Under the pieces are notes generated by a model. The model was not told the origin of the DNA. It searched no databases and saw only the letters and a program-made list of their open reading frames with translations. This document shows, in pieces, positions 3,632-25,212 of a stretch of 64,000 bases of DNA. Location: NCBI RefSeq assembly GCF_001413925.1, contig NZ_LBMJ01000001.1, positions 992,001-1,056,000 of the forward strand. The letters run 5' to 3'. The position numbers and the translations under genes are program-made. The stretch comes from Nonlabens sp. YIK11. Lineage in GTDB: Bacteria; Bacteroidota; Bacteroidia; Flavobacteriales; Flavobacteriaceae. Each line of letters opens with the position of its first letter. The first letter of the stretch is position 1.

Positions 3632-4075
3632 CAGTAAAGGTGTAATGCGTGTGAGACGTTCTTAACATTGGGCTGTTGCCTTGCCTTGTTGTTGTTTATT
3701 ATTGTTGAAATTAGTTAGTGTTGTTGTTGAACAGCAGCTTCAAGTTGAGCAGTCAAGAACTGACGTGGGCAGCGAGAAGAATTAATTTCCTGATGTGCAT
3801 TATTTGTAGTTTCTGCCAGTTGTTGGAGCGGAGAAGCTTATACTGGAACAAATCTAATTACAGATTAGGCGTTTCACACCTTTGCCGTTTCTGTCTCCGA
3901 CGAGCGAGGTAGTAGCGAGAGGAAGACACTGGAGTAGATTGGGAGTCTTGAAATTTTATGGTCCTGTGACTGGGTGAAGATCTTGATATTGCAGGCGCTC
4001 AAATGTTTTCTGAATCGAAGCCTTAGCCTCAAAATTTCACAGCAGAGAGCTACGGCCGCAGGCAATTGGCCTGAA
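3632..4075 (-). repeat. gene-less cassette S13 (distal, variant)
   Basis: This is a 444-bp diverged copy of the repeated gene-less cassette. It starts GTTCAGG on the minus strand at 4076 but its attC opens with GTTTCTG on the plus strand at 3887, so its two ends do not match. The outer end reads GACAGT instead of AACGGC, so the last core site looks decayed. Confidence 0.7.
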
Positions 4076-4205
4076 CGGTCTCGTATAACCGTCAGTTACG
4101 GGTTAATATGCGTTAATTTTCGCTTTAGCACAGACGTTAGCAATTCCGAATGGATTCGGACGTACTCGAATCCACCGTAATTGCGGTTATACATTGTTGG
4201 GCAAC
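4074..4205 (-). repeat. attC-like site of cassette C21
   Basis: The TATAACCG-arm type. The GTTGGGCAAC end at 4196-4205 equals the first 10 bases of the cassette read from 4742 on the minus strand. The central hairpin is ATTCGGACGTACTCGAAT. Confidence 0.8.
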
Positions 4206-4723
4206 GTTTTTATTAATTCCGCTTTTTTATTTTTTTCAGCGTGTGTCATTGCGATTATAAATTCAGTCAGTTTAATTGTGTCCATTTCTAATTGTCCAAG
4301 TTGTATATTCAATTCTTGAAAATCAAGAGCTTCATTAATTTTGCTCATAGCTTTATGAAACTTCCCTTTCCTTTTGGAAGGCTTGAAATTATCTGGCACT
4401 AAAAGACAAATAAAATGTTGTCCATAAACATTTACTGGATAAGCATCTTTGATAATTTCCCAATTTATAAATTCGTCGTGAGTCGTTCTATCATAAATTC
4501 CGATTTCATTAATTATTACTTGAGGTCTTTTGTCAAACATATGGAAAAGTCCTACTGGAATTGCTAAACTAAAAAAGCAAGTTCCTATCCAGCCCATTAT
4601 TCGGTCAGTTTCAGACCCTCCATCTCTATTAATCATCCATATTCCTGCTGCAATTAATGACGCAGCAAGTAGAAATTGTTTCAGAACTTTTTTCTTTGAT
4701 TTATATAATTTGATTTCGGTCAT
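4187..4723 (-). CDS. STM3941-like membrane protein (cassette C21)
   Basis: A 178-residue protein. Two hydrophobic segments at about residues 15-32 and 42-62 are followed by a soluble, PH-domain-like half with a motif around VIINEIGIYD and INWEIIKDAY. This resembles the STM3941 family of uncharacterised membrane proteins. The last residues (LPNNV) and the stop are encoded by the attC-like site. The ATG at 4723 lies 19 bases inside the cassette start. No function can be given. Confidence 0.65.
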   Translation of the reverse strand: MTEIKLYKSKKKVLKQFLLAASLIAAGIWMINRDGGSETDRIMGWIGTCFFSLAIPVGLFHMFDKRPQVIINEIGIYDRTTHDEFINWEIIKDAYPVNVYGQHFICLLVPDNFKPSKRKGKFHKAMSKINEALDFQELNIQLGQLEMDTIKLTEFIIAMTHAEKNKKAELIKTLPNNV

Positions 4724-4739
4724 TTCTCAAATGTTGCCC

Positions 4740-4934
4740 AACGGTCTTGGCTATGAGTACTGCGGGCGCAAACACCTACTTTCCTTTCGGTTGAGCACAG
4801 AGCCAGAACCTTGTTTTCGGTTTTTTTTTAATATTTCAAAAGCCAAAACAAGGTTTTGGCGGTCATAGCAAATTAGCGATTAATTTCGTGTTAAGCACTT
4901 AATCTTGCATTACTTATAGCCGTTGTTGTGCATA
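4740..4934 (-). repeat. attC-like site of cassette C20
   Basis: This is a GGCTAT/ATAGCC-arm site of about 195 bp with an AT-rich middle. The end GTTGTGCATA at 4925-4934 matches the cassette start GTTGTGTATA in 9 of 10 bases, and position 11 is G. Confidence 0.7.
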
Positions 4935-5422
4935 GTGTTTTCCTCACGATGCTTATAATTTCTGCCTGTTTTATATCCGCAATATGTCAATAATAACAAT
5001 ATAATCAGTAGGATAGTCAAAATGCTATTCGCGGTATTATTATATCTGTTTTGAGTTTGCTCTTTTACTTCGTCGCCAATATTTGAATAATCCATCGAAG
5101 AATATATTTGACCGAGTGAATTTATTGTCGTTATCACATTTACTAAAATCAAAATGACTAAAATGCTTGAAATCATAAACACAACATTTGCGAACAAATT
5201 TTTAAAATTCTGTCGCAACATTCTAACGAGATATACTCCGAAAAATATAAATGACGTCAATAACAGAAAAAAGAAAATATTTGGAATTACAAAATAGCTA
5301 TCGTGTAAATTAAAATCTAAAGTTGACGTTGCGGTAAAACTATCAAATCCGTCAAGAGAAAAATGAATTAGAAAGCAAATTATTAGAGTTCCAATCAGCC
5401 AAAATATTTCTTTTCGTTTCAA
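4910..5422 (-). CDS. small membrane protein, unknown (cassette C20)
   Basis: A 170-residue protein with four predicted membrane segments (about 9-25, 45-68, 80-103 and 138-154). The stretch LNLHD-like (LDFNLHDSYFV, about residues 36-46) recalls a motif in haem-copper oxidase subunit I, but nothing else supports that and no function is claimed. The only start I find is TTG at 5422. The C-terminal HNNGYK and the stop come from the attC-like site. Confidence 0.6.
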   Translation of the reverse strand: MKRKEIFWLIGTLIICFLIHFSLDGFDSFTATSTLDFNLHDSYFVIPNIFFFLLLTSFIFFGVYLVRMLRQNFKNLFANVVFMISSILVILILVNVITTINSLGQIYSSMDYSNIGDEVKEQTQNRYNNTANSILTILLIILLLLTYCGYKTGRNYKHREENTMHNNGYK

Positions 5423-5503
5423 TTTATTTTTATTGGTTTATTCAGTTGAAATTTATGTTCTGAACGATTTTTTTCGCTTTCACTATTTTTACATTATACA
5501 CAA

Positions 5504-5965
5504 CGGCAAAGGTATAATGCGTGTGAGGCGTTCCCTCACGTTTGCCCGTTACCTTGCCTTAATTGGTTTTGATTGATGAAGATAGTTATTGTTGAGGAAT
5601 TGAAGCCTCTCGTGGAGCATCTTGCATCCGACAAGCACTGCGAGAGGAATGCATACCTGAGGCGCTTTATGCTATGGTCGTGCCAGTTGGTGGAGGAAGC
5701 GAGATCCTAGCCAGGTACCGACCTACTTTTCGATCAAGGCGTTTCACACCTTTGCCGTTTCTGTCTCCGACGAGCGAGTTAGGAGCGAGAGGAAGACACA
5801 GAAGTAGATCGGGAGCCTGCCTGCCGGCAGGCAGGTCTTGAAATTTTGTGGTCCTGCGACTGGTTGAAGGTCTTTGTAATGCAGGTACTCAAATGTTTTG
5901 TGATTCGAAGCCTTAGCTTCAAAATTTCATAGCGGAGAGCTACGGCCGCAGGCAATTGGCCTGAA
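5504..5965 (-). repeat. gene-less cassette S12 (variant, with palindrome)
   Basis: A 462-bp variant. Its attC opens with GTTTCTG at 5757, unlike its start GTTCAGG. It also contains a perfect 20-bp palindrome at 5816-5835 that other copies lack. Confidence 0.75.
5816..5835. repeat. 20-bp GC-rich palindrome
   Basis: CCTGCCTGCC and its exact complement lie head to head inside gene-less cassette S12 and in no other copy. It looks like a small inserted palindromic repeat. It is GC-rich against the AT-rich array. Confidence 0.7.
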
Positions 5966-6030
5966 CGGTTGAGCTAAAAAGCGTTGCCATCTCGTAGGGT
6001 GGCTATGATTTTTTAGCCATTGTTGTAGCC
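5964..6030 (-). repeat. short attC-like site of cassette C19
   Basis: At about 65 bp this is the shortest site in the array and close to canonical attC size. The end GTTGTAGCCA at 6022-6031 equals the first 10 bases of the cassette at 6453, and position 11 is G against A. Confidence 0.75.
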
Positions 6031-6434
6031 AGTTTTTCTTCTTTTATAATTTCTCCTATCCTTTGGATTAACAATACACCCAATACTATTGCAGCTGTTA
6101 TCCAATCTTCTTTCCAGAAGTGGTAAATTATCACACCTAGTATTATTGGTGATATGTAATCAAGAAGTCTGTTAATTACTCCAAGCCAAATTTTGACTTT
6201 TTCTGGAAATATTGTTTTAAGTTTTTCTGTCAATGAGTTGAAGAAATAACCAATAAGATGCGCTGTCAACATTAAGAGTCCGAATCCGATAATCAAGATT
6301 GTCACAAATCGTTCGGTTCCACTTTCAGCGAAGATGTTGTAGATAAATTTACCGCAGAAAAAGATTACTCCGATTATCAGAATTGGTTTTATTCCTTGTT
6401 TCCAAACAGTGATTAAAAATTCTTTTCTATCCAT
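6003..6434 (-). CDS. membrane protein, unknown (cassette C19)
   Basis: A 143-residue protein with four hydrophobic segments (about 14-32, 43-66, 88-103 and 108-125) and short charged linkers, so a small integral membrane protein. The C-terminal residues AKKS and the stop lie in the attC-like site. The ATG at 6434 is 19 bases inside the cassette. I do not recognise the family. Confidence 0.65.
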   Translation of the reverse strand: MDRKEFLITVWKQGIKPILIIGVIFFCGKFIYNIFAESGTERFVTILIIGFGLLMLTAHLIGYFFNSLTEKLKTIFPEKVKIWLGVINRLLDYISPIILGVIIYHFWKEDWITAAIVLGVLLIQRIGEIIKEEKLATTMAKKS

Positions 6435-6450
6435 TTTGTAAATTGGCTAC

Positions 6451-6583
6451 AACGGTCTCGTATAAGAATAGTTGCGAGTTTAGGTGCGAGGATTTTCCGC
6501 GGGAAAATCAGACGTAGTAAACTTGCAACGACCTTTGGTTAAGCCCAAAATTGAGCGATTATTTTTATACATTGTTGTAGTGC
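6451..6583 (-). repeat. attC-like site of cassette C18
   Basis: Arms are CGTATAAGAATAG and TTTTTATACATTG with a central hairpin built on GATTTTCCGCGGGAAAATC. The end GTTGTAGTGC at 6574-6583 has no partner, because the start of this cassette is lost. Confidence 0.75.
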
Positions 6584-6589
6584 GTTATT

Positions 6590-6889
6590 CTACGCAATGT
6601 TGTTAGTGTATTTTCCGACAGCTTTTAATTCAGCAATCCCACTTTCTTTTTGAGCCAATACTTTCAACTCTCGGCAAAATATATCAATCGAATTTGGGTC
6701 AACTATTAACTCCATTGTTAGTTTGTCTTTTTCTTCTTTTCTATAAACCGTTGCCACATTTTCTTCCAATGTGATTTGCAATCCGCATTTACCTGTCAAT
6801 CCAATTTTATAGAATTCCATTTTAAAATATGCATAGCTATCTTTTTCTCCGCATGAATGAGTCACTTTATCCTTTCCAAACGGAAATCC
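6590..6889 (-). pseudogene. 5'-truncated cassette gene (C18)
   Basis: The frame stays open upstream of the GTG at 6865 and runs straight into the preceding gene-less cassette, with no ATG and no cassette start matching its attC end (GTTGTAGTGC). About 91-100 residues remain, mixed alpha/beta in character, without signal peptide or membrane segment. The junction carries a short inverted repeat, AACGG-ATTT-CCGTT, at 6877-6892 on the plus strand. The simplest reading is a deletion that removed the attC of S11 and the 5' end of this gene. Confidence 0.6.
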
Positions 6890-7046
6890 GTTCAGGCCAA
6901 TTGAGTAGATCGGGAGTCTTGAAATTTTGTGGTACTGTGACTGGTTGAAGATCTTGAGAATTCAGGCACTCAAATATTTTGTGATTCGAAGCCTTAGCTT
7001 CAAAATTTCATAGCGGAGAGCTACGGCCGCAGGCAATTGGCCTGAA
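6890..7046 (-). repeat. gene-less cassette S11 (attC deleted)
   Basis: Only the body of the gene-less cassette remains, from GTTCAGG (minus strand, 7047) to its inverted partner at 6890. The long attC part is missing and the next gene is truncated. Confidence 0.75.
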
Positions 7047-7173
7047 CGGTCACAGCTATAAGTAGTTGCGTGGTTTAGCACAAAACTTTGCAAGTACACA
7101 CCAAGCTGAAAATCCGCGAGGATTTTCAGAAGTAGGCGAGAACCAGCAATTACTTATAGCCATTGTTAGCCAC
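7045..7173 (-). repeat. attC-like site of cassette C17
   Basis: GGCTAT-arm type with the central hairpin AAAATCCGCGAGGATTTT. The end GTTAGCCACT at 7165-7174 equals the cassette start at 7975, with G against A at position 11. Confidence 0.8.
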
Positions 7174-7180
7174 TGTTTTT

Positions 7181-7954
7181 TTAATTTATTCCGAACACTT
7201 TTTTAAAAGGTTCTCTTAATTTTTTTCCTTCACTTTCGGTTAAAATATTGTCCGAAGCATATGACATTCCAGCGTGAAGTATTTTCTCCACAGCTTTTGC
7301 CCAAACAGGTTTTAGATAAATCTCTCCATCTTCATCTATTCCGAACGCAGAATCTCCAACTAATTCTCTTGCTCTAATGTCAAATTGAGACGATATAATA
7401 GATAAACCTTCTTTAATTGGTGAACTATACCTTTCATTTTTAGCTGATAGCTCAATCGTGTTATCGTGGTTATCATTAACAAAAGGATGATTAGCGTCAT
7501 AAATCTTTATACAGTTTTGCCAAGCCTTTGTATACAGTTCACTGTTCAATCCTTTGTCAAACTTTGATAGTTCCAGAACTTTATTTTCGGATATATTTCT
7601 TGTTAAGTTGATAATTTGCTCAATCTCTTGTCCATTGTCTCCAAATAATTCTTTGATTGCAACTTCTTCTAATATTTTAACTCCAAATGTTCTTGTGTAC
7701 CATACATCATTTACTAATCCTTTATTTATTCTTTTCTCTCTTGAAGGATTAATTACTTCTACTTTAAATAATTTCCCTGGCCATTGAGTAACAATTTTGG
7801 TTTCTAATGAATGGTCAACTACAATGAAAGGTGGTTTCTTATTCTTTTTAATAATTGAGTCACCAACCTTAGCATTTTCAAATAATTCGTTTTCATCATT
7901 CGATGCATAAACGTATCCTTGAATTTTCCTTTTACTAAAATTGAATAGGTCCAT
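7181..7954 (-). CDS. cytosolic protein of unknown function (cassette C17)
   Basis: A 257-residue soluble protein starting MDLFNFSKRKI at ATG 7954. The frame is open further upstream through the attC of S10, but the cassette start (7974) limits the gene to this ATG. The N-terminal half is beta-rich (residues 10-105) and the C-terminal half helical. No family is recognised. The upstream unit is gene-less cassette S10. Confidence 0.65.
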   Translation of the reverse strand: MDLFNFSKRKIQGYVYASNDENELFENAKVGDSIIKKNKKPPFIVVDHSLETKIVTQWPGKLFKVEVINPSREKRINKGLVNDVWYTRTFGVKILEEVAIKELFGDNGQEIEQIINLTRNISENKVLELSKFDKGLNSELYTKAWQNCIKIYDANHPFVNDNHDNTIELSAKNERYSSPIKEGLSIISSQFDIRARELVGDSAFGIDEDGEIYLKPVWAKAVEKILHAGMSYASDNILTESEGKKLREPFKKVFGIN

Positions 7955-7974
7955 TTTCTTCAAATAGTGGCTAA

Positions 7975-8416
7975 CGGCAAAGGTATAATGCGTGTGAGTC
8001 GTTCCCTCACTTTTGGCTGTTACCTTGCCTTTAGTTGGTTTTGATGGATGAAGATAGTTAATGTTGTTGAATAGAAGCCTCACGTGGAGCATCCTGCATC
8101 CGACGAGCACAGCGAGAGGAATGCATACCTCTTGCGCTTCATGCTATGTTCGTGCCAGTTGGTGGAGGAAGCGAGATTCTAGCTAGGTAAACACCTACCT
8201 CATGAAAAGGCGTTTCACACCTCTGCCGTTTCTGTCTCCGACGAGCGAGGTAGGAGCGAGAGGAAGACAGATGAGTAGATCGGGAGTCTTGAAATTTTGT
8301 GTTCCAGTGATTGGTTGAAGATCTTGATAATGCAGGCACTCAAATGTTTTGTGATTCGAAGCCTTAGCTTCAAAATTTCATAGCGGAGAGCTACGGCCGT
8401 AGGCAATTGGCCTAAA
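7975..8416 (-). repeat. gene-less cassette S10 (variant)
   Basis: A 442-bp variant starting GTTTAGG with attC end GTTTCTG at 8228. Around 8232-8270 it carries an extra imperfect palindrome, CTGTCTCCG ... GGAAGACAG, which S12 and S13 share. Confidence 0.75.
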
Positions 8417-8546
8417 CGTTGTTGTATATGGTTTGTTGCGTGGTTTAAGCAACTAATTTAGTAAATAATTACCGACCAAGAAAGTCCGCGAGGACTTTCG
8501 CTAGTAGGCAAGAAGCTAGCAATAAATTATATACGGTGTTGTACAC
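8415..8546 (-). repeat. attC-like site of cassette C16
   Basis: Arms are GTTGTATATGG and ATATACGGTGTTG. The end GTTGTACACA differs from the cassette start GTTGGGCACA at two bases, so this cassette is the weakest end match in the array. Position 11 is G. Confidence 0.75.
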
Positions 8547-8551
8547 AGGCT

Positions 8552-9736
8552 TTATTTTGATTCTAATGTTATATTTTCTAATAACCTTTTTAATGTTTTA
8601 ACTCCAAGTCCAGGAATTTCTTTTAAATCATCTTCGGTTATCTTATTTTTTTTAACTCTTAATTTAATTATTTCTTTAGCGATATTTTTAGAAACATTTC
8701 CGACAACTACAATTTCATCTAATGTTGCAGAATATATACTTGGCTTTTTATCTAAAAATTTATCCTTGTCAAGAAAATCAAGTAAGTCAGCACAAACTAA
8801 ATAAATATGCATTACAGTTTTAATTGCTTCAACTCTAGTTAAGCTTGAATGTACACCCTTATTTGTTAGTTTGAATGTACTTTGTAGGTATAGACCAAGA
8901 AAGTCAACGTGTTTTTTTGCTAAATCTTTATTAGATTTACTGACTATATTTTCGTCCATATAAGCCCAAAGACGATTTATATAATTTTCTTTGGATAAAC
9001 TTCTTCCATTTATTTTTTCTTCAGTTGGTGGATATAAATTATCTGCTAATTTTTCAAAGAATCGCCTACAACTTGTTAAACCTTGAGACCATTCTTCTTC
9101 ACTATTTGACGAAACTGATTTAAATGCTAAAAGTAGTTGTTCTGCTAATTCAGGGTCGATTTCAAAAAGTACATCTTCTACTTGATTTTTAAGAATCTCA
9201 AAATTTGATTCAGGTAAATGTTCGTAAGCGTATTTTTTATGATAAAAGGAAGCTTTTTTATATGCTAATGATTTTACGACAGAAAGTGTTTGAGATAAAT
9301 TTGCAGTATAGTAAGTTCCATCATTTCCCCTTTTCGTTTTTACATAGTCTTTGTATTTATCTTCTATGTATCCAATATTAGAAAAACTTCCACCAGCATC
9401 AGTCGCTTTTGCAGTTAATTCTTCATTTGTAATATCTATTCCTACATCAATTCCTAATTCTTTTACTGTTTTAGTAATTGCTTTAAGTTTTTCCTTAGTT
9501 TTTTTATTGTTTTCATTTTCATTTTCAATAAATGCAGATATAAGTTCTTTGAGACTTGTAGTATAAATAGTGTTACCTAATTGAATTTCAGTCCAAATTA
9601 TAAGTTTTTTTTCATTAAGTAATTTTCCAATTCTATTTAACTTTTGGATACAGCTAAAAAGAGAAAATTTTGGATTTTCAAGATTCTCGATTACTTCTTC
9701 TAATAAAAATAGACCTTTTTCTTTTTTCGAACTCAT
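8552..9736 (-). CDS. AbiTii-like protein with C-terminal HhH motif (cassette C16)
   Basis: A 394-residue soluble protein. The first 60 residues (EEVIENLENPKFSLFS, then a Lys/Leu helix and an IWTEIQLG motif) resemble the AbiTii N-terminal domain seen in putative abortive-infection proteins. The middle contains CRRFFEKLADNLYPP (about 225-240), a signature common in the same group. The last 40 residues carry a helix-hairpin-helix, EIPGLGVKTLKRLL, which can bind DNA. It may be a phage-defence cargo, by family resemblance only. The ATG at 9736 follows a cassette start GTTGGGC. Confidence 0.6.
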   Translation of the reverse strand: MSSKKEKGLFLLEEVIENLENPKFSLFSCIQKLNRIGKLLNEKKLIIWTEIQLGNTIYTTSLKELISAFIENENENNKKTKEKLKAITKTVKELGIDVGIDITNEELTAKATDAGGSFSNIGYIEDKYKDYVKTKRGNDGTYYTANLSQTLSVVKSLAYKKASFYHKKYAYEHLPESNFEILKNQVEDVLFEIDPELAEQLLLAFKSVSSNSEEEWSQGLTSCRRFFEKLADNLYPPTEEKINGRSLSKENYINRLWAYMDENIVSKSNKDLAKKHVDFLGLYLQSTFKLTNKGVHSSLTRVEAIKTVMHIYLVCADLLDFLDKDKFLDKKPSIYSATLDEIVVVGNVSKNIAKEIIKLRVKKNKITEDDLKEIPGLGVKTLKRLLENITLESK

Positions 9737-9758
9737 ATCTTTTTCAGCTTGTGCCCAA

Positions 9759-10142
9759 CGGCAAAGGTATAATGCGTGTGAGGCGTTCCCTCACGTTTGG
9801 CTGTTACTTTGCTATTCATTGGTTTTGATGGATGAAGATAGTTAATGTTGTTGAATAGAAGCCTCGCGTGGAGCATTTGGAACGCCTTATGCGCTTTATG
9901 CTATGTTCGTGAAAGTTGCTGGAGGAAGCGTAGCCTTGCTAGGTATACACTTACCTATTGATCAAGGCGTTTCACACCTTTGCCGTTCAGGCCAATTGAG
10001 TAGATTGGGAGTCTTGAAATTTTGAAGATCTTAAGGCTGATTAGTAGTTTTAGCTATACTAACATTCGAATTGATGTGTGCTCAAGCCTTAAAAATCAAA
10101 ATTTCATAGCGGAGAGCTACGGCCGCAGGCAATTGGCCTGAA
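9759..10142 (-). repeat. gene-less cassette S9
   Basis: A 384-bp copy with matching GTTCAGGCCAATTG ends (minus strand 10143 and plus strand 9985). Its body is a mosaic: it has the GATTAGTAGTTTTAGC segment of S1-S5 but the attC resembles the distal copies. Confidence 0.85.
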
Positions 10143-10271
10143 CGGTCTCGTATAACCATCAGTTACGGGATTAAAGTTAATGATTTTCGGTTAAGAACTG
10201 GCGTTAGCAATTCCGAGTGGATTCGGACGTAGTCGAATCCGCCGCAATTGCGGTTATACATTGTTGTGTGC
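10141..10271 (-). repeat. attC-like site of cassette C15
   Basis: TATAACCG-arm type with the central hairpin ATTCGGACGTAGTCGAAT. The end GTTGTGTGC matches the start GTTCTGTGC in 8 of 9 bases. Confidence 0.8.
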
Positions 10272-10817
10272 TGGCTTTTTTCTCATCAAACTTTTAATTC
10301 GATTCGGATACTTATGGTTTAGGTAAACTCCAATTCCAAAAAATCCCATTATTAACAAAAAAGGAAAGAGAAATCTTAATTCAGATTTCACGTCATTCAT
10401 ATCATAGAGTATATTGTTTTCTCCAGTTGCAATTTGAAATACTTCAGGTTCCATTTCAGATTGTTCACTTTCCTTAATCCAAACAATTGCTTTTCCAGAT
10501 TTTTTTAATTCTCTCTCAATTAGCTCATACTTTTCATTATTCCAACTCTGTTCAATGTTTTTAGCTAATTTATAGTTTCGAGTATCATTTTTAAGATTTA
10601 ATATTAGTTCCGACTTCACGCTTTTATGACCTTTAGAACTAACTCTTGTGTAAAATGCTTTTACATTCTCTACTTCTCCACGTTTTTCAATTAGAGACTT
10701 TTCTGTTGTGAATAGGGTAGGCGCAAAAAAATAAAATGCACAACCAATACAAGCAATTCCGAACCAAAGTAATTGTCCAGCGTAATAATCTTTCCTCCAT
10801 TTCTTTTTGCTGTTCAT
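10254..10817 (-). CDS. membrane protein with two terminal TM segments (cassette C15)
   Basis: A 187-residue protein starting MNSKKKWRKDYY at ATG 10817. A GTG 18 bases upstream is in frame but less likely. One membrane segment lies at about 16-36 and another at about 152-170, framing a soluble middle domain of about 110 residues that probably faces the periplasm. The C-terminal HNNV and the stop are encoded by the attC-like site. It resembles DUF3592-type topology, but I cannot assign it. Confidence 0.6.
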   Translation of the reverse strand: MNSKKKWRKDYYAGQLLWFGIACIGCAFYFFAPTLFTTEKSLIEKRGEVENVKAFYTRVSSKGHKSVKSELILNLKNDTRNYKLAKNIEQSWNNEKYELIERELKKSGKAIVWIKESEQSEMEPEVFQIATGENNILYDMNDVKSELRFLFPFLLIMGFFGIGVYLNHKYPNRIKSLMRKKPAHNNV

Positions 10818-10837
10818 TTGTTTTTCAGCTTGCACAG

Positions 10838-17612: not shown

Positions 17613-17622
17613 AATGTGTTAC

Positions 17623-17816: not shown

Positions 17817-17832
17817 GTTGTTTTATTAAGTT

Positions 17833-18198
17833 TTAGTTCCGTTTTCTCACTAAAATTATTCCGTCATTTCCTTGTAAAAGATCGCCACCTTTTTGTCCGA
17901 TTTCATAAAATCCAATCGGAAAATCCAATTCATATTCAGCATTAATCGTAAAGCGATAAACGTAAAACTCCACGTCATTAATTTTATTGGTTTTTGGGTT
18001 TATTCGGTTTTTTTCAATCTTATATGCAAAAGGAATTGTATCATTTTCGTTAATTATAATTCTACCTTTTTTCGAGTTCAAAAAGGATAATTCGATGTTA
18101 TGTTCTTTATAACTGCCTTGATAAATCTTTTCACTTTTCAATATCGAACATCCGCTTAAAAGAATAAATAGTAATGCGTTAATCAGAACATTTTTCAT
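17833..18198 (-). CDS. lipoprotein of unknown function (cassette C6, second gene)
   Basis: A 121-residue protein with a lipoprotein signal (LLSGC, Cys17) and a small beta-rich mature domain. It starts 3 bases after the stop of the first gene of the same cassette, so the two are translationally linked. No family is recognised. Confidence 0.6.
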   Translation of the reverse strand: MKNVLINALLFILLSGCSILKSEKIYQGSYKEHNIELSFLNSKKGRIIINENDTIPFAYKIEKNRINPKTNKINDVEFYVYRFTINAEYELDFPIGFYEIGQKGGDLLQGNDGIILVRKRN

Positions 18199-18201
18199 TT
18201 T

Positions 18202-18471
18202 CTATTCATTTGGAATTTGTACATATCCTGACCAAATTAAAACTATATATATCAGGCAAAATATTGCAAATGCTCTGAAGAAATAGTGATAAAACTTGAA
18301 AATCGCAGGTGCCTTTTCAACTAATATCGAGTTCCGCTTTTTCAGTCCGTTTTTTAGTTTGTTAGTTATTATCGGACCTAAAATCCAAAAAAAGAAAAAT
18401 CCGCCAACAAAAAATAATGATAATCCGATTTTAAATTTCAATTCGCGATGTTTTTTTTCAATGTTGCACAA
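18202..18471 (-). CDS. small membrane protein (cassette C6, first gene)
   Basis: An 89-residue protein with two membrane segments (about residues 16-35 and 60-80). No ATG is available. The first possible start is the TTG formed by the cassette start itself (GTTGTGC), with another TTG 11 codons later. If the first is used, the core site doubles as the start codon. Confidence 0.5.
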   Translation of the reverse strand: MCNIEKKHRELKFKIGLSLFFVGGFFFFWILGPIITNKLKNGLKKRNSILVEKAPAIFKFYHYFFRAFAIFCLIYIVLIWSGYVQIPNE

Positions 18472-18855
18472 CGGCAAAGGTATAATGCGTGTGAGGCGTT
18501 CCCTCACGTTTGGCTGTTACCTTGCTATTGATTGGTTTTGATTGATGAAGATAGTTATTGTTGAGGAATTGAAGCCTCGCGTGGAGCATTTGGAACGCCT
18601 TATGCGCTTTATGCGATGTTCGTGCCAGTTGTTGGAGGAAGCGAGATCCTAGCCAGGTACCGACCTACTTTTCGATCAAGGCGTTTCACACCTTTGCCGT
18701 TCAGGCCAATTGAGTAGATTGGGAGTCTTGAAATTTTGAAGATCTTCAGGCTGATTAGTAGTTTTAGCCATACTCACATTCGAATTGATTGGTGTTTAAG
18801 CCTTAAAATCAAAATTTCATAGCGGAGAGCTACGGCCGCAGGCAATTGGCCTGAA
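18472..18855 (-). repeat. gene-less cassette S5
   Basis: A 384-bp copy with matching ends (18856 and 18699). By eye it is identical to S1-S4. Confidence 0.9.
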
Positions 18856-18984
18856 CGGTTTCGGCTATGAGTAGTTGCGTGGGTTATCACTTAACTTTGC
18901 AAGTACACACCAAACTGAAAATCCGCGAGGATTTTCGGAAGTAGGCGAGAACAAGCAATTACTTATAGCCATTGTTGTGTTTAG
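18854..18984 (-). repeat. attC-like site of cassette C5
   Basis: GGCTAT-arm type. The end GTTGTGTTTA equals the cassette start at 19593. G replaces A at position 11, followed by four more matching bases. Confidence 0.8.
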
Positions 18985-19580
18985 TTATTTAATTCAGTTA
19001 ATATTTTTTCTTTGTCTTTATTCCAAATCGTGTATGTAAAAGTCCTTTTATTATGGAAAAACATTTCATCTTCCAATATTGTTGCACTTGATAGTACATA
19101 AAAGACTATACTGAAAAGTTGCAATAAGTTTTTTATAAATGATGTCAAAAATGACGGATTATCTCCAAAATCGTCAATGACTCTCATTCCAAAAATATAT
19201 TTTCCAAAGGTTCTTCCAGTTAGAGATTCGAAAATCGGGTTAATGACAAACAAAGCAAAAAATGCTAACAAAAATGGGTAAAGATTTATTTCTGTCAGAT
19301 ACCTGTCAATCAAATATAAAACACTCAAATAAATTCCGTAGTCAAATAACTTAGCAAATAGTCTAATCCAAAATCCGTCAATGTTTGGGTTCAATGGGAA
19401 TTCATAATCATATTTCTCACCACGTTTTGTTATCGTTCTGTAAGTTATTGCCTTGGATATTCTATTAGTCTTTTTCTTTTTCAGCTCGATTTTTATTATC
19501 CATTCAGACAAATAGTATAAAGCCAAGTACAAAAGTAAAAGCCCTCCAAAAGCAAATATTTCAAATGGTAAGTCGTTCAT
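18981..19580 (-). CDS. RDD-family membrane protein (cassette C5)
   Basis: A 199-residue protein starting MNDLPFEI at ATG 19580. A TTG 12 bases upstream lies in the terminal repeat. One N-terminal membrane segment (about 9-28) precedes an RDD-like domain: GFWIRLFAKLFDYGIYL, then a segment with GRTFGKYIFGMRVID, the diagnostic part of the family, and two further membrane segments. RDD proteins are small transporters or membrane proteins of mostly unknown role. The last residues NN and the stop come from the attC-like site. Confidence 0.8.
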   Translation of the reverse strand: MNDLPFEIFAFGGLLLLYLALYYLSEWIIKIELKKKKTNRISKAITYRTITKRGEKYDYEFPLNPNIDGFWIRLFAKLFDYGIYLSVLYLIDRYLTEINLYPFLLAFFALFVINPIFESLTGRTFGKYIFGMRVIDDFGDNPSFLTSFIKNLLQLFSIVFYVLSSATILEDEMFFHNKRTFTYTIWNKDKEKILTELNN

Positions 19581-19590
19581 AATTAAACAC

Positions 19591-19720
19591 AACGTTGTGG
19601 TGTATGATTAGTGGCTTGTTTAAGCACATAATTTAGCAAATAAAAACCTAATAGAAAATCCGCGAGGATTTTCGTAAGCAAGCTAAAACTAGCCATTAAT
19701 TATACACGGTGTTACCACAC
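19591..19720 (-). repeat. attC-like site of cassette C4
   Basis: GTGTATGATTAGTGGC and ATTAATTATACAC arms. The end GTTACCACAC equals the cassette start at 20298, with G against A at position 11. Confidence 0.8.
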
Positions 19721-19818
19721 GATTTTATTAGCCATTCAGTAAATCAGTTGCTCGATTTGATTTCTGATTGAGAATAGAAGAATCAAAATCAAAAGTGTAA
19801 TCAAATTCGTTTTGAATT

Positions 19819-20079
19819 TCACGTATTCTCCATTGTTGTATTTTTAATAATTCTATAAACTAAAAATCCGTCAACAATTAAAATCGGCAGATAGTTAAAT
19901 CTTAATTCAACATACCATAATTCGGAAACTTTACTTGCACCAGCTCCAGAGCCAAATATTAAGAAAAAAGCTAATATCTGAATTAAAATCAGAAGTAGCA
20001 GAATTCCGAAAAATAGAACTGACTTAATTCCGATTCCGAGATAACTCGTCTTTATTTTTAAAAATTCGGCTGTTTTCAA
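19819..20079 (-). CDS. small membrane protein (cassette C4, second gene)
   Basis: An 86-residue protein with one or two hydrophobic segments (about 19-43 and 65-77). The only start is TTG at 20079, 9 bases after the stop of the first gene. Unusually, about 100 bases lie between its stop and the attC-like site. No family is recognised. Confidence 0.5.
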   Translation of the reverse strand: MKTAEFLKIKTSYLGIGIKSVLFFGILLLLILIQILAFFLIFGSGAGASKVSELWYVELRFNYLPILIVDGFLVYRIIKNTTMENT

Positions 20080-20088
20080 TTCAAGTTA

Positions 20089-20280
20089 TTAATTAATATT
20101 TTTAGTTGATTTAATTGAAAGAATAAACCATATGCATCCAATAAAAAAACAAACAATTCCGAGCAAAAACAGAATTGTACTAATTGGATGACCAATTTTC
20201 GCTGTATATCCAATTCCAATCATTAACCAACCTAAAATTACTGTTATTATAGAAAGTGTTATTTTTAATGTTCGGGTCAT
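20089..20280 (-). CDS. 63-residue double-TM protein (cassette C4, first gene)
   Basis: A very small protein starting MTRTLKITLS at ATG 20280, with two hydrophobic segments (about 7-23 and 33-55). The frame continues upstream into the attC of S4, which is not part of the gene. It forms a two-gene cassette with the next small membrane protein. Confidence 0.55.
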   Translation of the reverse strand: MTRTLKITLSIITVILGWLMIGIGYTAKIGHPISTILFLLGIVCFFIGCIWFILSIKSTKNIN

Positions 20281-20297
20281 TTTCAAATGTGTGGTAA

Positions 20298-20681
20298 CGG
20301 CAAAGGTATAATGCGTGTGAGGCGTTCCCTCACGTTTGGCTGTTACCTTGCTATTGATTGGTTTTGATTGATGAAGATAGTTATTGTTGAGGAATTGAAG
20401 CCTCGCGTGGAGCATTTGGAACGCCTTATGCGCTTTATGCGATGTTCGTGCCAGTTGTTGGAGGAAGCGAGATCCTAGCCAGGTACCGACCTACTTTTCG
20501 ATCAAGGCGTTTCACACCTTTGCCGTTCAGGCCAATTGAGTAGATTGGGAGTCTTGAAATTTTGAAGATCTTCAGGCTGATTAGTAGTTTTAGCCATACT
20601 CACATTCGAATTGATTGGTGTTTAAGCCTTAAAATCAAAATTTCATAGCGGAGAGCTACGGCCGCAGGCAATTGGCCTGAA
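20298..20681 (-). repeat. gene-less cassette S4
   Basis: A 384-bp copy with matching ends (20682 and 20525), identical by eye to S1-S3 and S5. Confidence 0.9.
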
Positions 20682-20809
20682 CGGTCTCGGCTATGAGTAG
20701 TTGCGTGGTTTAGCACTTACCATTGCAAGTACACACCAAACTGAAAATCCGCGAGGATTTTCAGAAGTAGGCGAGAACAAGCAATTACTTATAGCCAATG
20801 TTAGGCAAT
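20680..20809 (-). repeat. attC-like site of cassette C3
   Basis: GGCTAT-arm type with the central hairpin AAAATCCGCGAGGATTTT. The end GTTAGGCAAT equals the cassette start at 21306, with G against A at position 11. Confidence 0.8.
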
Positions 20810-21285
20810 GTTTTTTTATTCCGATTAGTTTTTATAAAACCTCCAAATGCTTGTAATATTGAAGGCGTTATTGTCAAAATCAGAAGTATTATAATTTCGA
20901 GTTTTATGTTTTTTGTATGAATAGAGAAACTATCACTAAAATTAAATGGCGTTTCTATTCCACTTATATACATTCTGTAAATCAGCCATAAAATTCCTCC
21001 GTTTCCATTTTTCCAATCCAAATCAGTAGGGGAATTTAGAAAAGCACACAACCAAATTACGGCTCCAATTAATGCTATAATATAATAATTCCAAAATTTA
21101 AATTTTTCAGTTTTATCGGTAAGTAAATATCCGCTAACTAAATAAAGTATAAGAACTATTGTCAGATGAAAAATAGCATAAATTATTTCAGTTGTTCCGT
21201 TTCCAACATATTCATACAGATGTGTGATTCCGAAAATGGAAATTATAAATATTAAAATATGTGATGCGATTAATTTCAGTTGCAT
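20785..21285 (-). CDS. polytopic membrane protein, unknown (cassette C3)
   Basis: A 166-residue protein starting MQLKLIASHIL at ATG 21285, with four membrane segments (about 6-20, 31-50, 62-78 and 130-150). The final residues LPNIGYK and the stop are encoded by the attC-like site. No family is recognised. S3 lies directly upstream. Confidence 0.6.
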   Translation of the reverse strand: MQLKLIASHILIFIISIFGITHLYEYVGNGTTEIIYAIFHLTIVLILYLVSGYLLTDKTEKFKFWNYYIIALIGAVIWLCAFLNSPTDLDWKNGNGGILWLIYRMYISGIETPFNFSDSFSIHTKNIKLEIIILLILTITPSILQAFGGFIKTNRNKKTLPNIGYK

Positions 21286-21305
21286 TTTTTTCAAATATTG
21301 CCTAA

Positions 21306-21689
21306 CGGCAAAGGTATAATGCGTGTGAGGCGTTCCCTCACGTTTGGCTGTTACCTTGCTATTGATTGGTTTTGATTGATGAAGATAGTTATTGTTGAGG
21401 AATTGAAGCCTCGCGTGGAGCATTTGGAACGCCTTATGCGCTTTATGCGATGTTCGTGCCAGTTGTTGGAGGAAGCGAGATCCTAGCCAGGTACCGACCT
21501 ACTTTTCGATCAAGGCGTTTCACACCTTTGCCGTTCAGGCCAATTGAGTAGATTGGGAGTCTTGAAATTTTGAAGATCTTCAGGCTGATTAGTAGTTTTA
21601 GCCATACTCACATTCGAATTGATTGGTGTTTAAGCCTTAAAATCAAAATTTCATAGCGGAGAGCTACGGCCGCAGGCAATTGGCCTGAA
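21306..21689 (-). repeat. gene-less cassette S3
   Basis: A 384-bp copy with matching ends (21690 and 21533), identical by eye to the other proximal copies. Confidence 0.9.
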
Positions 21690-21887
21690 CGGCTCCGTAT
21701 ATGAAAAGTAGCGCTGAAAATAAGCGATAACTTTTCGGATTAAACACAAGCCGAATTTTTAAATTTTACTATTTATCTTTTTTATTGGAAATCGTCAAAT
21801 TTAAAAATTTGGCGACTTTCCAAAAATGCCCAAATCATAGTGTTAGCAATGACTTGCGCTATTTTTTATATACAATGTTGTCTATAG
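21688..21887 (-). repeat. attC-like site of cassette C2
   Basis: A site of about 200 bp with GTATATGAAAAGTAGCGC and GCGCTATTTTTTATATAC arms. The end GTTGTCTATA equals the cassette start at 22749. G replaces A at position 11, then TGC matches again. Confidence 0.85.
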
Positions 21888-22370
21888 TGCTTTCGCACAC
21901 AGTTTTTCCAACATTTCTTTTTCTTCTTTCGATAGCAGTTTCGCACGATATTTTTTGTCCGCTGTGGAAACTGATTTTCCACCAAAAGGATTTAATAATT
22001 CGTACGTTGCTTTATTCATATTCTTTTGAACAATTCTGTTTAATTCTCGTTCAAGTTCATTTGTTTTTTCACGACCATTTTCCCACAAGTCTTTTTTTGT
22101 ATTGTATTCGTCAAAATGGCAGTAAAAATATTCATAATCATAATTTTCTGTATCGGGAATTGCGTTTCGGATTTGAGAATGAATCTTATTATGAGAAAAA
22201 TGATTTCCAACTCTTGAAATTACAGGATTGCAACCAGCTCGATTATCGCCAACTTTACCTACATAAAGAATCTTTTTCTTAGACTTATTTTTTGGTGTAG
22301 CCACGAAAATGTAAACCGCCCAATTCCGTTTTGTTGAATGTCCTGATATTTTAAAATGTCCTATTTCCAT
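21882..22370 (-). CDS. GIY-YIG-like nuclease domain protein (cassette C2)
   Basis: A 162-residue soluble protein starting MEIGHFKISGH at ATG 22370. The segment WAVYIFVATP ... ILYVGKVGDNRAGC (about residues 17-45) has the two-strand spacing of a GIY-YIG core (VYIF, YVGKVG). An Arg follows in ISRVGNHF, and a Glu appears later in the helix NELERELNRI. It is probably a diverged nuclease-fold protein. A tRNA-like element lies just upstream in the same cassette. Confidence 0.6.
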   Translation of the reverse strand: MEIGHFKISGHSTKRNWAVYIFVATPKNKSKKKILYVGKVGDNRAGCNPVISRVGNHFSHNKIHSQIRNAIPDTENYDYEYFYCHFDEYNTKKDLWENGREKTNELERELNRIVQKNMNKATYELLNPFGGKSVSTADKKYRAKLLSKEEKEMLEKLCAKAL

Positions 22371-22386
22371 AAAATTTATATTTGAA

Positions 22387-22493
22387 TGGTAGAGAAGGCA
22401 GGAATCGAACCTGCCCACGCATTCAGTCTTGAATAGCCACTAAGCACCTATTTATTTCTATACTTTATAATCAGAAGTTAGACCATCTTCTCC
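22387..22493 (-). ncRNA. tRNA-like element inside cassette C2
   Basis: On the minus strand the 107-base stretch starts GGAGAAG and ends CTTCTCT-ACCA, which pair as a 7-bp acceptor stem with an encoded CCA. Just before lies a perfect T arm, GCAGG-TTCGATT-CCTGC. The middle does not fold as a normal D and anticodon arm. It offers the hairpins TCTAACTT/AAGT(A)TAGA and AATAG/CTATT instead. It is a decayed tRNA, a tRNA mimic or a tmRNA-like piece; I cannot tell which. Confidence 0.45.
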
Positions 22494-22687
22494 ACGAATG
22501 CGACTCCTAAAACTATACTTTTTATAAAATTCATAATTTTTGTTCTTTTCAGAATTCCGTTAATCTGTTCTATTTTTTTCATAATCTTCGTTTTTGTGTA
22601 TGTTAATAAATTTTGTGGATTTATCGACAGACTAACTCTGATTACGAGCATAGTAAAGTCAATAGACTTAGTAACCTTGAGCATCAA
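22478..22687 (-). CDS. possible small protein upstream of the tRNA-like element
   Basis: A 69-codon frame in the first part of cassette C2. Its last residues overlap the 5' end of the tRNA-like element, so both cannot easily be real. It has a hydrophobic segment near the C-terminus (FIKSIVLGVAFV). This is a weak candidate; the rest of 22494-22748 shows nothing else. Confidence 0.2.
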   Translation of the reverse strand: MMLKVTKSIDFTMLVIRVSLSINPQNLLTYTKTKIMKKIEQINGILKRTKIMNFIKSIVLGVAFVEKMV

Positions 22688-22748
22688 GATTTTTATCTCT
22701 TTCGAGAATATTTTTTCAATGAACGATGTTTTTCAGCATTATAGACAA

Positions 22749-23132
22749 CGGCAAAGGTATAATGCGTGTGAGGCGTTCCCTCACGTTTGGCTGTTACCTT
22801 GCTATTGATTGGTTTTGATTGATGAAGATAGTTATTGTTGAGGAATTGAAGCCTCGCGTGGAGCATTTGGAACGCCTTATGCGCTTTATGCGATGTTCGT
22901 GCCAGTTGTTGGAGGAAGCGAGATCCTAGCCAGGTACCGACCTACTTTTCGATCAAGGCGTTTCACACCTTTGCCGTTCAGGCCAATTGAGTAGATTGGG
23001 AGTCTTGAAATTTTGAAGATCTTCAGGCTGATTAGTAGTTTTAGCCATACTCACATTCGAATTGATTGGTGTTTAAGCCTTAAAATCAAAATTTCATAGC
23101 GGAGAGCTACGGCCGCAGGCAATTGGCCTGAA
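22749..23132 (-). repeat. gene-less cassette S2
   Basis: A 384-bp copy with matching ends (23133 and 22976), identical by eye to S1. Confidence 0.9.
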
Positions 23133-23262
23133 CGGTCTCGTATAACCGTCAGTTACGGGTTAATATGCGTTAATTTTCGGTTTAGCATAGGCTTTATCAA
23201 TTCCGAGTGGATTCGGACGTAGTCGAATCCGCCGTAATTGCGGTTATACCTTGTTGTGAGCA
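23131..23262 (-). repeat. attC-like site of cassette C1
   Basis: TATAACCG-arm type with the central hairpin ATTCGGACGTAGTCGAAT. The end GTTGTGAGCA equals the cassette start at 23858, with G against A at position 11. Confidence 0.85.
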
Positions 23263-23267
23263 GTATT

Positions 23268-23846
23268 TTATCCACAATATTTTTTAAATTTTAATGTTTT
23301 CAGAGCTTTTAAAAATTCGGCTTGTACTTTATCGTTTAGGTAAAAACCATAGAATCCAAACTTGATTTTGTCAAAATTCCGTTTTGTTCCAGTTAAGCTA
23401 TCTATATAAATTCCAGTTCCGCCAAAACCTTTATTTCTTGGTGTAATTATTTTTGCTTGGAAACAATCAATCGTATCGTATTCAAATTGGTATTGTAAAT
23501 ATTCTTTAAAGTCAATATCTCCAGTTATAGTGTCAACGATAAGATGTTTTGTTTTCGGCAGTAGTTCAAGTTCTTTTTCAGTCAGTTCTGCTAATCCGAG
23601 AGAGTCGTAAACCATTGGAAAATCACTTCTACTTAAATCGCCAGAATACATTCCAAAATCAAAGTCCAAAGTGTCGTTTGTTTCAGTTATTATTCCGCCA
23701 ACATAACTATCAATTCCTTTGGCTTCGTATTTGTTCCAATTTTCGGGTACAGTTATTTCAAATTGTCCGAAGTCAATTGTCTTATATTCTCTTTGTGTAC
23801 AAGAGAAAATCAGAAGTAAAATTAATATCGATAGCGTTTTTCTCAT
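23268..23846 (-). CDS. lipoprotein of unknown function (cassette C1)
   Basis: A 192-residue protein starting MRKTLSILILLLIFSC at ATG 23846, with a lipoprotein signal (Cys16). The mature domain begins with FGQFEITVPENWNKYEAKG, like the first strands of PsbP/MOG1-fold lipoproteins, and ends LKALKTLKFK. The role is unknown. It is the first gene-bearing cassette behind the recombinase, after gene-less cassette S1. Confidence 0.65.
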   Translation of the reverse strand: MRKTLSILILLLIFSCTQREYKTIDFGQFEITVPENWNKYEAKGIDSYVGGIITETNDTLDFDFGMYSGDLSRSDFPMVYDSLGLAELTEKELELLPKTKHLIVDTITGDIDFKEYLQYQFEYDTIDCFQAKIITPRNKGFGGTGIYIDSLTGTKRNFDKIKFGFYGFYLNDKVQAEFLKALKTLKFKKYCG

Positions 23847-23857
23847 ATTGCTCACAA

Positions 23858-24241
23858 CGGCAAAGGTATAATGCGTGTGAGGCGTTCCCTCACGTTTGGC
23901 TGTTACCTTGCTATTGATTGGTTTTGATTGATGAAGATAGTTATTGTTGAGGAATTGAAGCCTCGCGTGGAGCATTTGGAACGCCTTATGCGCTTTATGC
24001 GATGTTCGTGCCAGTTGTTGGAGGAAGCGAGATCCTAGCCAGGTACCGACCTACTTTTCGATCAAGGCGTTTCACACCTTTGCCGTTCAGGCCAATTGAG
24101 TAGATTGGGAGTCTTGAAATTTTGAAGATCTTCAGGCTGATTAGTAGTTTTAGCCATACTCACATTCGAATTGATTGGTGTTTAAGCCTTAAAATCAAAA
24201 TTTCATAGCGGAGAGCTACGGCCGCAGGCAATTGGCCTGAA
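23858..24241 (-). repeat. gene-less cassette S1 (first cassette)
   Basis: This is the 384-bp unit joined to the recombinase end of the array. On the minus strand it starts GTTCAGGCCAATTG at 24242, has a body of about 150 bases without a credible gene, then the inverted copy of its start at 24085, and an attC-like part of about 230 bp with arms GGCAAAGGTGTGAAACGCC and GGAACGCCTCACACG ... ACCTTTGCC. Positions 1-14 match exactly at both ends. S1-S5 are identical by eye. Confidence 0.9.
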
Positions 24242-24354
24242 CTAGTGTATAGAAGCAAGTTAATACTTAACCCCAATTAAATCAATACCTTCTTAACTTA
24301 ATATCATAGGATATATCTCTTTTTGTATGATATTTATCCTACAAAAATATCAGC
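24242..24354. promoter_or_regulatory. attI-like region between recombinase and array
   Basis: The first junction is CTAG-TTCAGG on the minus strand at 24242/24241. Between it and the recombinase ATG lies an AT-rich stretch with inverted AGGATA/TATCCT (24308-24313 and 24335-24340), a possible recombinase-binding pair. On the minus strand TATTTTTG at 24349-24342 fits the minus-7 box TAnnTTTG and would fire into the array, although no clear TTG minus-33 is seen. Confidence 0.5.
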
Positions 24355-25212
24355 ATGTTTGAAGACTTTAAAACGCTGTTACAAATCAAAAAATACAGCA
24401 GGAACACTATCAGGTCTTATATAGGCTTATTACACGTATTTCAAGACTTTATAGGCTTTCAAACACCTATAGAAAAGTTAGATAACTATTACCTTTTTGA
24501 CAAATTGGGCGAACTCATCCTTGTTAAAAGTTACGTATATACAACTCAAAAGCAATTGTTGAGCGCCATCAGGTTGTATCTATTTGAAATGCACAAAAGA
24601 GAGGTGGATTTTAAAAAGTTACAACCTCGGCCTCCGCAGCAAGTATTGCCGCAAATCTTGTCGTTAGAAGAAGTAACTCTACTGCTTAATAAGACAGAAA
24701 ATAAAAAGCACAAGGCCATGCTGGCCACAATATATGGTCTTGGGCTTAGAAGTGGTGAACTCATCAACCTCAAGATATCTGATCTGGACAAAAACCGCAA
24801 TTGCGTTTTCATCAGTCAGTCAAAAGGTCGTAAAGATAGAATCGTACCATACCCAGATTCCCTAAAGCCTATTTTAAAAGCCTACTATCAAGAGTATAAG
24901 CCTAAAACCTACCTTTTTGAAGGTCAAAAAAGGGAACAATATAGTGCGGGATCCCTACGAGCCGTTTTCAACAATGCATGCAAACGCGCTGGAATAACCA
25001 AAGATGTAACCTGTCATAACCTACGACACTCTTATGCCACGCATCTCTTAGATTCAGGAACAAACCTAAGAGTCATACAAAATTTATTGGGACACAATAA
25101 CATCAAGACAACATTGCTTTATACTCGGGTTTCTGATCGCAGTATCGTGAATACCTTAAGCCCATTGGTTTTTTTAAAACTCACCAGTGATGACAGTAGC
25201 GTTAATGCTTAA
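24355..25212 (+). CDS. tyrosine recombinase of the cassette array (IntI-like role)
   Basis: A 285-residue recombinase. The SAM-like N-terminal domain spans residues 1-90 and the catalytic domain runs from about 100. Catalytic residues are Arg132 (GLGLRSGEL), Lys157 or Lys160 (SKGRKDR), His221 and Arg224 (HNLRHSYATHLL), His247 (LLGHNN) and Tyr256 (LLYTRV). The C-terminus ends with an SPL-type motif as in XerC/IntI. Canonical IntI has an extra patch of about 20-35 residues before the HxxR box; here only a short linker (YKPKTYLFEGQ) is present. It is divergent from the cassettes and adjacent to the first core site, the position of intI in integrons. Confidence 0.9.
   Translation: MFEDFKTLLQIKKYSRNTIRSYIGLLHVFQDFIGFQTPIEKLDNYYLFDKLGELILVKSYVYTTQKQLLSAIRLYLFEMHKREVDFKKLQPRPPQQVLPQILSLEEVTLLLNKTENKKHKAMLATIYGLGLRSGELINLKISDLDKNRNCVFISQSKGRKDRIVPYPDSLKPILKAYYQEYKPKTYLFEGQKREQYSAGSLRAVFNNACKRAGITKDVTCHNLRHSYATHLLDSGTNLRVIQNLLGHNNIKTTLLYTRVSDRSIVNTLSPLVFLKLTSDDSSVNA

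Follow-up and report, generated by a model that had tools for sequence, protein, structure and literature searches.

An integron-like cassette array with a patchless tyrosine recombinase in Nonlabens sp. YIK11 and related Bacteroidia

What kind of element is the long run of short head-to-tail units that lies beside a tyrosine recombinase gene in Nonlabens sp. YIK11, and if it is an integron, is it one of the known kind? The locus falls within a 64,000-nucleotide stretch, here called the window, that corresponds to positions 992001-1056000 of contig C1 (NZ_LBMJ01000001.1) of a 3.26-Mb genome (label G000); unless another replicon is named, coordinates below are positions in this window. An earlier note on the same DNA had read the array as an integron-like system separate from the known integrons. 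Our analysis makes it very likely that the locus is an integron-like gene-cassette platform, in which a recombinase lacking the accessory patch of the integron recombinase IntI (hereafter patchless) would excise units at GTT and insert them at an adjacent attI-like site by way of a folded strand.

The array itself is well defined. On the minus strand, about 33 units lie head to tail from 24242 to approximately 3640, 27 of them contiguous (24242 to 7048); delimited by hand, these 27 comprise 10 units without an open reading frame (ORF-less; 383-384 bp, with one 442-bp variant) and 17 units with genes, and each opens with GTT followed by seven bases of its own. A unit detector requiring GTT-N7, its reverse complement with at most one mismatch, a stem score of at least 8 and then the next GTT returned a chain of 22 consecutive minus-strand units (24242 to 10840), against a longest chain of 4 in 10 dinucleotide shuffles. 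The head-to-tail array of the earlier note thus stands, with its count of 34 units corrected to about 33. The note had also stated that the terminal sequence of each unit is repeated, inverted, at the start of that unit's own hairpin, and this holds for 15 of the 17 gene units: the 10-base match is exact in 12 and carries one mismatch in 3, with none found at the limit of one mismatch in the other 2. Since the pattern is legible on both strands, the direction of the units needed settling, and it was settled by the ORF-less units, all 10 of which consist of a body and then the same hairpin end on the minus strand, the preceding hairpin being variable. The cassette genes also lie on the minus strand, with the longest ATG-started ORF beginning 13-31 nt past GTT in 13 of the 17 gene units. 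Most of these genes are flanked by the 10-base inverted repeat, as would be expected of phase-variable inversion or of inverted-repeat transposon units, a reading that we regard as highly improbable given that the units run in a single direction (zero inverted among the 27), that the repeats differ from gene to gene, and that the boundaries are GTT junctions, not target duplications.

The surroundings of the array resemble those of an integron as well. An intact recombinase gene of 285 codons, confirmed here, lies on the plus strand at 24355-25212, divergent from the cassettes, and an attI-like site on the minus strand (24243-24280, outer limit approximate) ends in TTCTATACACTA before the first GTT and has related sequences beside the recombinases of relatives. 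Sequences kin to this site occupy the same place in many loci, while several loci differ; those of Chitinophagaceae and Weeksellaceae often contain GCGTATATTT shortly before GTT, and genome G001 has the attI-like site of the window with a different first cassette. In some lineages (e.g. L044, L060, L063 and L066) the recombinase lies upstream of the cassettes in the same orientation, and the direction of the units is uniform in the window and in most relatives listed. Spacers within the hairpins are unequal, mostly 2-4 nt after AAC and 5-7 nt before GTT, in site sets of which one was selected for that trait and another was not. The layout is therefore that of an integron: a recombinase, a conserved attI-like site and cassettes.

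Is this, then, an ordinary IntI-type integron, with a divergent IntI and ordinary attC sites that are unusual in sequence only? The layout, the attI, the logic of the R boxes and the unequal spacers are all as in the canonical arrays of the phylum, and the recombinase matches the integron integrase model TIGR02249 with an E-value of 1.8e-49, although its score of 168.8 bits falls below the cut-off of 265. A second model, NF040815, bears the NCBI name 'site-specific tyrosine recombinase/integron integrase', which is also carried by three of the four plasmid records examined; the window recombinase scores 189 against a cut-off of 220 bits, and the name says little, because the genome's own XerD passes this model (241 vs 220 bits). 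Nor is the protein a Xer recombinase by the XerC and XerD models, where it scores 154.3 and 170.5 against cut-offs of 335.15 and 329.6; the host XerD (348.8 bits, above cut-off) and a XerC-like protein (303 of 335 bits) are encoded by separate genes (L002, L003). The protein carries the R, K, H-R, H and Y motifs, its catalytic tyrosine being Tyr256, a comparison of the predicted structure with the PDB gives a tyrosine-recombinase fold and little beyond what the sequence already tells, and the nearest named relative is from N. marinus (82%). What distinguishes the protein is the region of the IntI patch, where, as the earlier note had proposed, it is not IntI-like: this region spans 17 residues in the window recombinase and 59 in 29 of 29 measured IntI. 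The IntI value depends on the alignment (59, or 48 in a smaller one), whereas the patchless length is stable at 17-20 residues, a range that covers the measured relatives with arrays as well as all 40 recombinases of a further set, of which 15 have arrays; 10 recombinase loci and one of 30 IntI loci (L149) were skipped as too short. In Xer proteins the corresponding loop has 25 and 22 residues.

The difference extends to the hairpins, where it is stronger than in the recombinase and goes beyond anything in the earlier note. As a control we used canonical arrays beside IntI from other classes of the same phylum (9 of 20 loci, 8 in the later counts), and near-copies were removed at 86% identity over 90 bases in the 121-, 47- and 140-site counts. 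In the 140-site count, which applied one rule to both groups and left out the window itself, an extra base located on the first arm no more than 20 nt from AAC was present in 25 of 140 patchless sites and 24 of 27 canonical ones, an A·C or C·A mismatch, equivalent to a bottom-strand G·T pair, in 115/140 and 5/27, and an A at position 15 after AAC in 113/140 and 1/27. In the discovery set of 121 sites (stem limit 10 in the patchless and 9 in the canonical group, L050 left out), Nonlabens had shown G·T pairs at positions 10 and 15 and other loci at 12 and 15-16, with extra bases in 23/121 patchless and 33/40 canonical sites. Both features recur in 47 separate sites taken from 14 other loci: G·T at position 15 occurs in 41 of 47, and an extra base in only 4 of 47, against 27 of 27 canonical sites (Fisher 2.7e-16). 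A first, looser count, in which near-copies were kept and gaps further up the stem were included, was less sharp (83/195 vs 65/70). Within an alignment of 44 hairpins the A at position 15 is invariant. Computed with DNA energies and ties excluded, the bottom strand is the more stable one at 37/48, 54/71 and 33/46 sites (p 2e-4, 1e-5 and 0.0045), and not significantly so in canonical sites (21/39 and 16/25). The hairpins of this type are thus mostly without the extrahelical bases of attC and carry G·T pairs at fixed bottom-strand positions (15, together with 10 or 12), a feature that is new here.

With both differences in hand, namely the absent patch region, along with scores of 168.8 vs 265 and 189 vs 220 bits, and the scarcity of extrahelical bases with G·T pairs in fixed places, we consider an ordinary IntI-type integron quite unlikely. 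The window has much in common with such integrons: a recombinase by attI, one-gene cassettes in one direction, an inverted terminal repeat at the hairpin start, the GTT junction, R boxes ending in AAC and starting with GTT, unequal spacers and cassette gain at attI. It departs from them in the length of the patch region (17-20 vs 59 residues), in the bases of the R''-L'' arm, where extrahelical bases are mostly replaced by fixed G·T pairs, and in the greater stability of the bottom strand. In sum, the locus works like an integron, but by its patch and its extrahelical bases it is not of the IntI type. Three other differences listed in the earlier note fall away because canonical IntI arrays show them too: core sites sharing only GTT (canonical cores also vary), a match of 10 instead of 7 bases (equally long in the canonical arrays of the phylum), and hairpins of about 240 bp (from AAC to GTT those of the window measure 116-226 bp, and canonical ones reach 207-212 bp).

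Do such units actually move? The earlier note had named in advance what would count against it, namely that no strain shows gain or loss of single units at GTT junctions, and gain is seen both in the sister genome G017 and in a pair of plasmids. Contig C2 of G017 (13,959 bp) aligns over its whole length with that genome's C1, the chromosome (99.89% and 99.85%), apart from an additional ORF-less unit of 376 bp that separates attI from what was the first unit. This extra unit equals an internal unit at 376 of 376 positions (over 381 bp it is identical to two internal units), the unit that follows it equals the chromosome's first unit at 376 of 376, and the two differ from one another by 8 single-nucleotide differences at positions 62 to 323. 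Neither a plain tandem duplication of the neighbor nor a mosaic fits this arrangement, because the extra unit and the next each match a different copy at 100%. The second case comes from two marine plasmids, NZ_CP092416 of Flagellimonas marinaquae and NZ_CP022516 of Arenibacter algicola, which are 99.991% identical over 10,902 bp, the extent of the compared stretches, and encode an identical patchless recombinase with 17 residues in the patch region. Their identity ends exactly at the attI GTT, with GTTATGCGGC on one side and GTTGTAGTGC on the other; the first cassettes differ, and nothing is shared beyond. In the first unit of the Arenibacter plasmid, the gene is enclosed by terminal sequences that match exactly over 10 bases; on the Flagellimonas plasmid, the second unit has a hairpin 93.5% identical to one of the window. 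When the window array was compared with 8 congeneric loci by BLAST (matches of at least 250 bp), 200 of 366 match ends fell within the tolerance of 15 bp of a GTT boundary, where 4.9% were expected, with four of the boundary positions used being 1 to 4 bases off. Two near-identical locus pairs thus show an apparent exchange point at the GTT beside the recombinase.

These comparisons bear on a further possibility, that the array is a relic or passive, with a recombinase that no longer moves cassettes and with spread by homologous recombination between repeated hairpins or ORF-less units. The repeated units would indeed supply homology, the distal end of the array (3632-7047) is degenerate, and in the closest relative, G001 (L006 / L103), the recombinase, 95% identical to that of the window, has a frame broken by one TGA and one TAA, with attI and cassettes kept. 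We nevertheless judge a relic unlikely, as the G017 extra unit matches one copy at 100% and the following unit another with no mosaic between them, the plasmids switch cassettes at GTT with nothing shared beyond, and the window recombinase is intact.

If the platform is active, as the integron-like reading holds, a cycle can be proposed on the basis of the features above. The recombinase would bind the folded bottom strand of a hairpin, which is taken as the substrate because its fold is the more stable one and because the A·C mismatches of the top strand are G·T pairs in it; the bound hairpin would then pair either with another hairpin, leading to excision, or with attI, leading to insertion, and strand exchange would take place at G|TT. 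In the window, this exchange would be performed by the patchless recombinase at 24355-25212. Unequal spacers and G·T pairs at defined distances would jointly convey strand and polarity, and we infer that the pairs at 10 or 12 and at 15 serve as marks of strand and polarity in place of the bases read by the IntI patch.

How far does the system extend? As the earlier note had suggested one should look, we searched related genomes, and many Bacteroidia do have comparable arrays next to comparable recombinases. With L063 as query and E-values up to 1e-50, relatives of the recombinase occur in 130 of 295 genomes of class Bacteroidia, a figure that counts recombinases and not arrays. Chains of at least 3 oriented units are present at 19 of 98 recombinase loci, the window and a repeat locus included (L111 repeats L110), compared with 1 of 294 shuffles, and at 15 of 40 further loci compared with 0 of 120; the 40 were picked for contig room and not at random, and one of them (L208) is a repeat of L033 and does not figure in the separate hairpin set. 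For the distant Bacteroidales recombinases (L075-L086, L088-L091) the oriented detector found no chain of 2 or more units; a looser detector gave chains of 3 at two of these loci, L080 and L082, which the oriented one does not support. Canonical IntI scores above cut-off in 70 of 247 genomes of the phylum and is frequent outside the window's class (G023 and others), with arrays beside several; at any match with an E-value of 1e-45 the count is 72 genomes, 71 outside the window's class and one inside, the class share of the 247 not being given. Of the separate system claimed in the earlier note, then, patchless recombinases with arrays in many Bacteroidia are borne out, while separate descent is not decided by our trees: in a tree of 69 rows, 14 of the 29 IntI among them, IntI forms one clade, and a single clade of the array-bearing rows is neither shown nor rejected (approximately unbiased test, p 0.62). 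The missing patch may be either ancestral or lost.

Plasmids carry such arrays too. The array of the Chryseobacterium plasmid NZ_CP041688 holds three copies of an ORF-less unit different from that of the window, which means that the pattern of gene units interspersed with a repeated ORF-less unit is also found in an unrelated lineage; two other plasmid stretches have chains of 2. The Flagellimonas plasmid (L265, NZ_CP092416.1) is mobilizable, and its region 7898-9896 holds erm(F), which lies in the first unit and is oriented against the cassettes; its second cassette-like unit contains a gene of the dihydrofolate-reductase family. In a candidate-phylum genome, a contig of Candidatus Kerfeldbacteria (L096, 3849-5459) has a partial recombinase match with a short GTT-type chain of 2 to 3 units next to it.

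Several observations weigh against the reading of an integron-like platform with a code of its own. Both cases of exchange are comparisons of sequences rather than observed events, and C2 of G017 may be an assembly product, its array part also showing 2 mismatches and 8 small gaps relative to C1. Patchless hairpins do sometimes carry extra bases (25/140, 23/121, 4/47 and, loosely counted, 83/195), and RNAalifold run on the 44-hairpin alignment gives only 4 pairs, a low yield that probably reflects poor alignment of the variable loop. At 69 of the 98 recombinase loci the detector returned no chain of at least 2 units, and at 25 of the 40 further ones none of at least 3, which contig ends and the limits of the detector explain in part. 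A single scan with a simple motif found no promoter beside attI, and the place of the recombinases relative to IntI is not firm in the tree (sister group versus a grade around IntI).

How did the platform reach its present position? Also beyond the earlier note is the finding that perfect 52-bp direct repeats bracket positions 2037 to 25456, the array included. The first copy (2037-2088, plus strand) is the end of a gene for leucine transfer RNA (tRNA-Leu; 2006-2088, plus strand), which serves as the attachment site, and the second lies at 25405-25456 on the same strand; at the left end is a second tyrosine integrase, an open frame of 457 residues (2012-3385, plus strand) whose start as listed is inside the tRNA. 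In G001, the tRNA-Leu is empty: the sequences to its left (window 456-2088, 95.2%) and right (93.3%) are joined across one 52-bp copy, and this genome's own recombinase and array sit elsewhere. Direct repeats of a tRNA end, an integrase at one end and an empty site in a relative, the marks of a genomic island, are thus all present, and the window platform probably travels in an island put into tRNA-Leu by the integrase at 2012-3385. Two other members of the genus have second 52-bp ends, at a distance from the tRNA of about 29.5 kb in G014 and 23 kb in G003, so that this tRNA-Leu site (window, L262, G014, G003) looks like an integration hot spot. We considered tRNA-Leu as the usual site of such arrays and rejected it: no tRNA was found beside the arrays of Nonlabens relatives in 12 stretches, so among the genomes examined the island seems particular to that of the window.

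Along the array (all minus strand), the first unit, which begins at the attI junction, is ORF-less (23859-24242), and its sequence is an instance of one that recurs at 13 places, alternating with one to three gene units. The other ORF-less units of the contiguous part are 22750-23133, 21307-21690, 20299-20682, 18473-18856, 15803-16186, 14025-14408, 12367-12749, 9760-10143 and the 442-bp variant 7976-8417. The gene units are GTTGTGAGCA (23134-23858), GTTGTCTATA (21691-22749, with a tRNA-like stretch), GTTAGGCAAT (20683-21306), GTTACCACAC (19594-20298), GTTGTGTTTA (18857-19593, encoding an RDD family protein), GTTGTGCAAC (17626-18472), GTTGTAACAC (17001-17625), GTTCTACATC (16187-17000), GTTGCCCACA (15132-15802), GTTGTAAGCA (14409-15131), GTTACCTGCA (13378-14024), GTTGTGCCTA (12750-13377, DUF4265), a second GTTGTAAGCA (11710-12366), GTTGGCATTA (10841-11709), two more units at 10144-10840 and 8418-9759 (the latter with a product of 394 residues and a weak HHH_3 match), and GTTAGCCACT (7048-7975). 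In the distal, partly degenerate part (3632-7047, about 6 units), GTT lies at 7047, 6453, ~5966, 5504, 4742 and ~4076. For most of the cassette genes no Pfam family was found. Other ORF-less units are repeated elsewhere, one of 376 bp in G017 and one of 172 bp on the Chryseobacterium plasmid; a role as promoter cassettes was considered and set aside, as three ORF-less units have no full Bacteroidota-type promoter motif, that of the window having the -7 half alone. The tRNA-like stretch (22387-22493, minus strand) resembles the 3' half of a tRNA or transfer-messenger RNA with a matching acceptor stem, at 12.2 bits, far under the gathering score, and no Rfam match inside the array reaches that score. 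Elsewhere in the genome, attC-like hairpins occur at C1 3014733-3017488, 2078177-2080052, 1094937 and 2409255 (contig positions); no recombinase match was found in 20-kb stretches around them, and they resemble scattered cassettes.

Among related systems, Xer proteins (XerC/XerD and the archaeal XerA) are not known to carry cassette arrays. The phage CTXphi is not known to carry cassettes or an array and, unlike the window, relies on the XerCD of its host instead of encoding a recombinase. Its integration is nonetheless similar in relying on a folded single-stranded site without extrahelical bases and on patchless recombinases, as described in PMC4792948, which also states that XerCD is without the I2 domain and imagines a Xer-like ancestor that gained it. 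Integron integrases are characterized by the patch with which they hold extrahelical bases. For IntI-type sites, PMC2727003 reports that the first extrahelical base is absolutely conserved and essential for strand choice, and that attC x attC deletion fails without extrahelical bases; PMC8138268 describes the CAT insertion of an integron-like subgroup as not fully conserved and essential for function. Two papers name Bacteroidota among the phyla with integrons (PMC8618304, PMC9668308), the IntegronFinder 2.0 paper counts a single complete integron for Bacteroidetes proper (Salinibacter; PMC9024848), and the main text of PMC8352920 has no word beginning with 'Bacteroid'. In PMC2426708, intI was selected by its additional domain. 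Surveys of genomes in which the patch is a selection criterion would probably overlook the present system. The earlier note knew of no description of it, and we found none of such a patchless system in the literature searched, preprints and most subscription papers lying outside that search.

What might the platform mean for the biology of these bacteria? It is possible, and we put it forward tentatively, that it represents a second class of integron, spread across Bacteroidia and marine plasmids and using a wobble-pair code, which may preserve the step from Xer to IntI that has hitherto been a hypothesis. If so, the capture of cassettes as single strands would have a second recognition code, and the patchless recombinases would offer a natural candidate for the patchless stage imagined in the evolution of IntI (PMC4792948). 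The presence of copies on plasmids, one with erm(F) inside a unit, means that the system also bears on the spread of genes in Bacteroidota.

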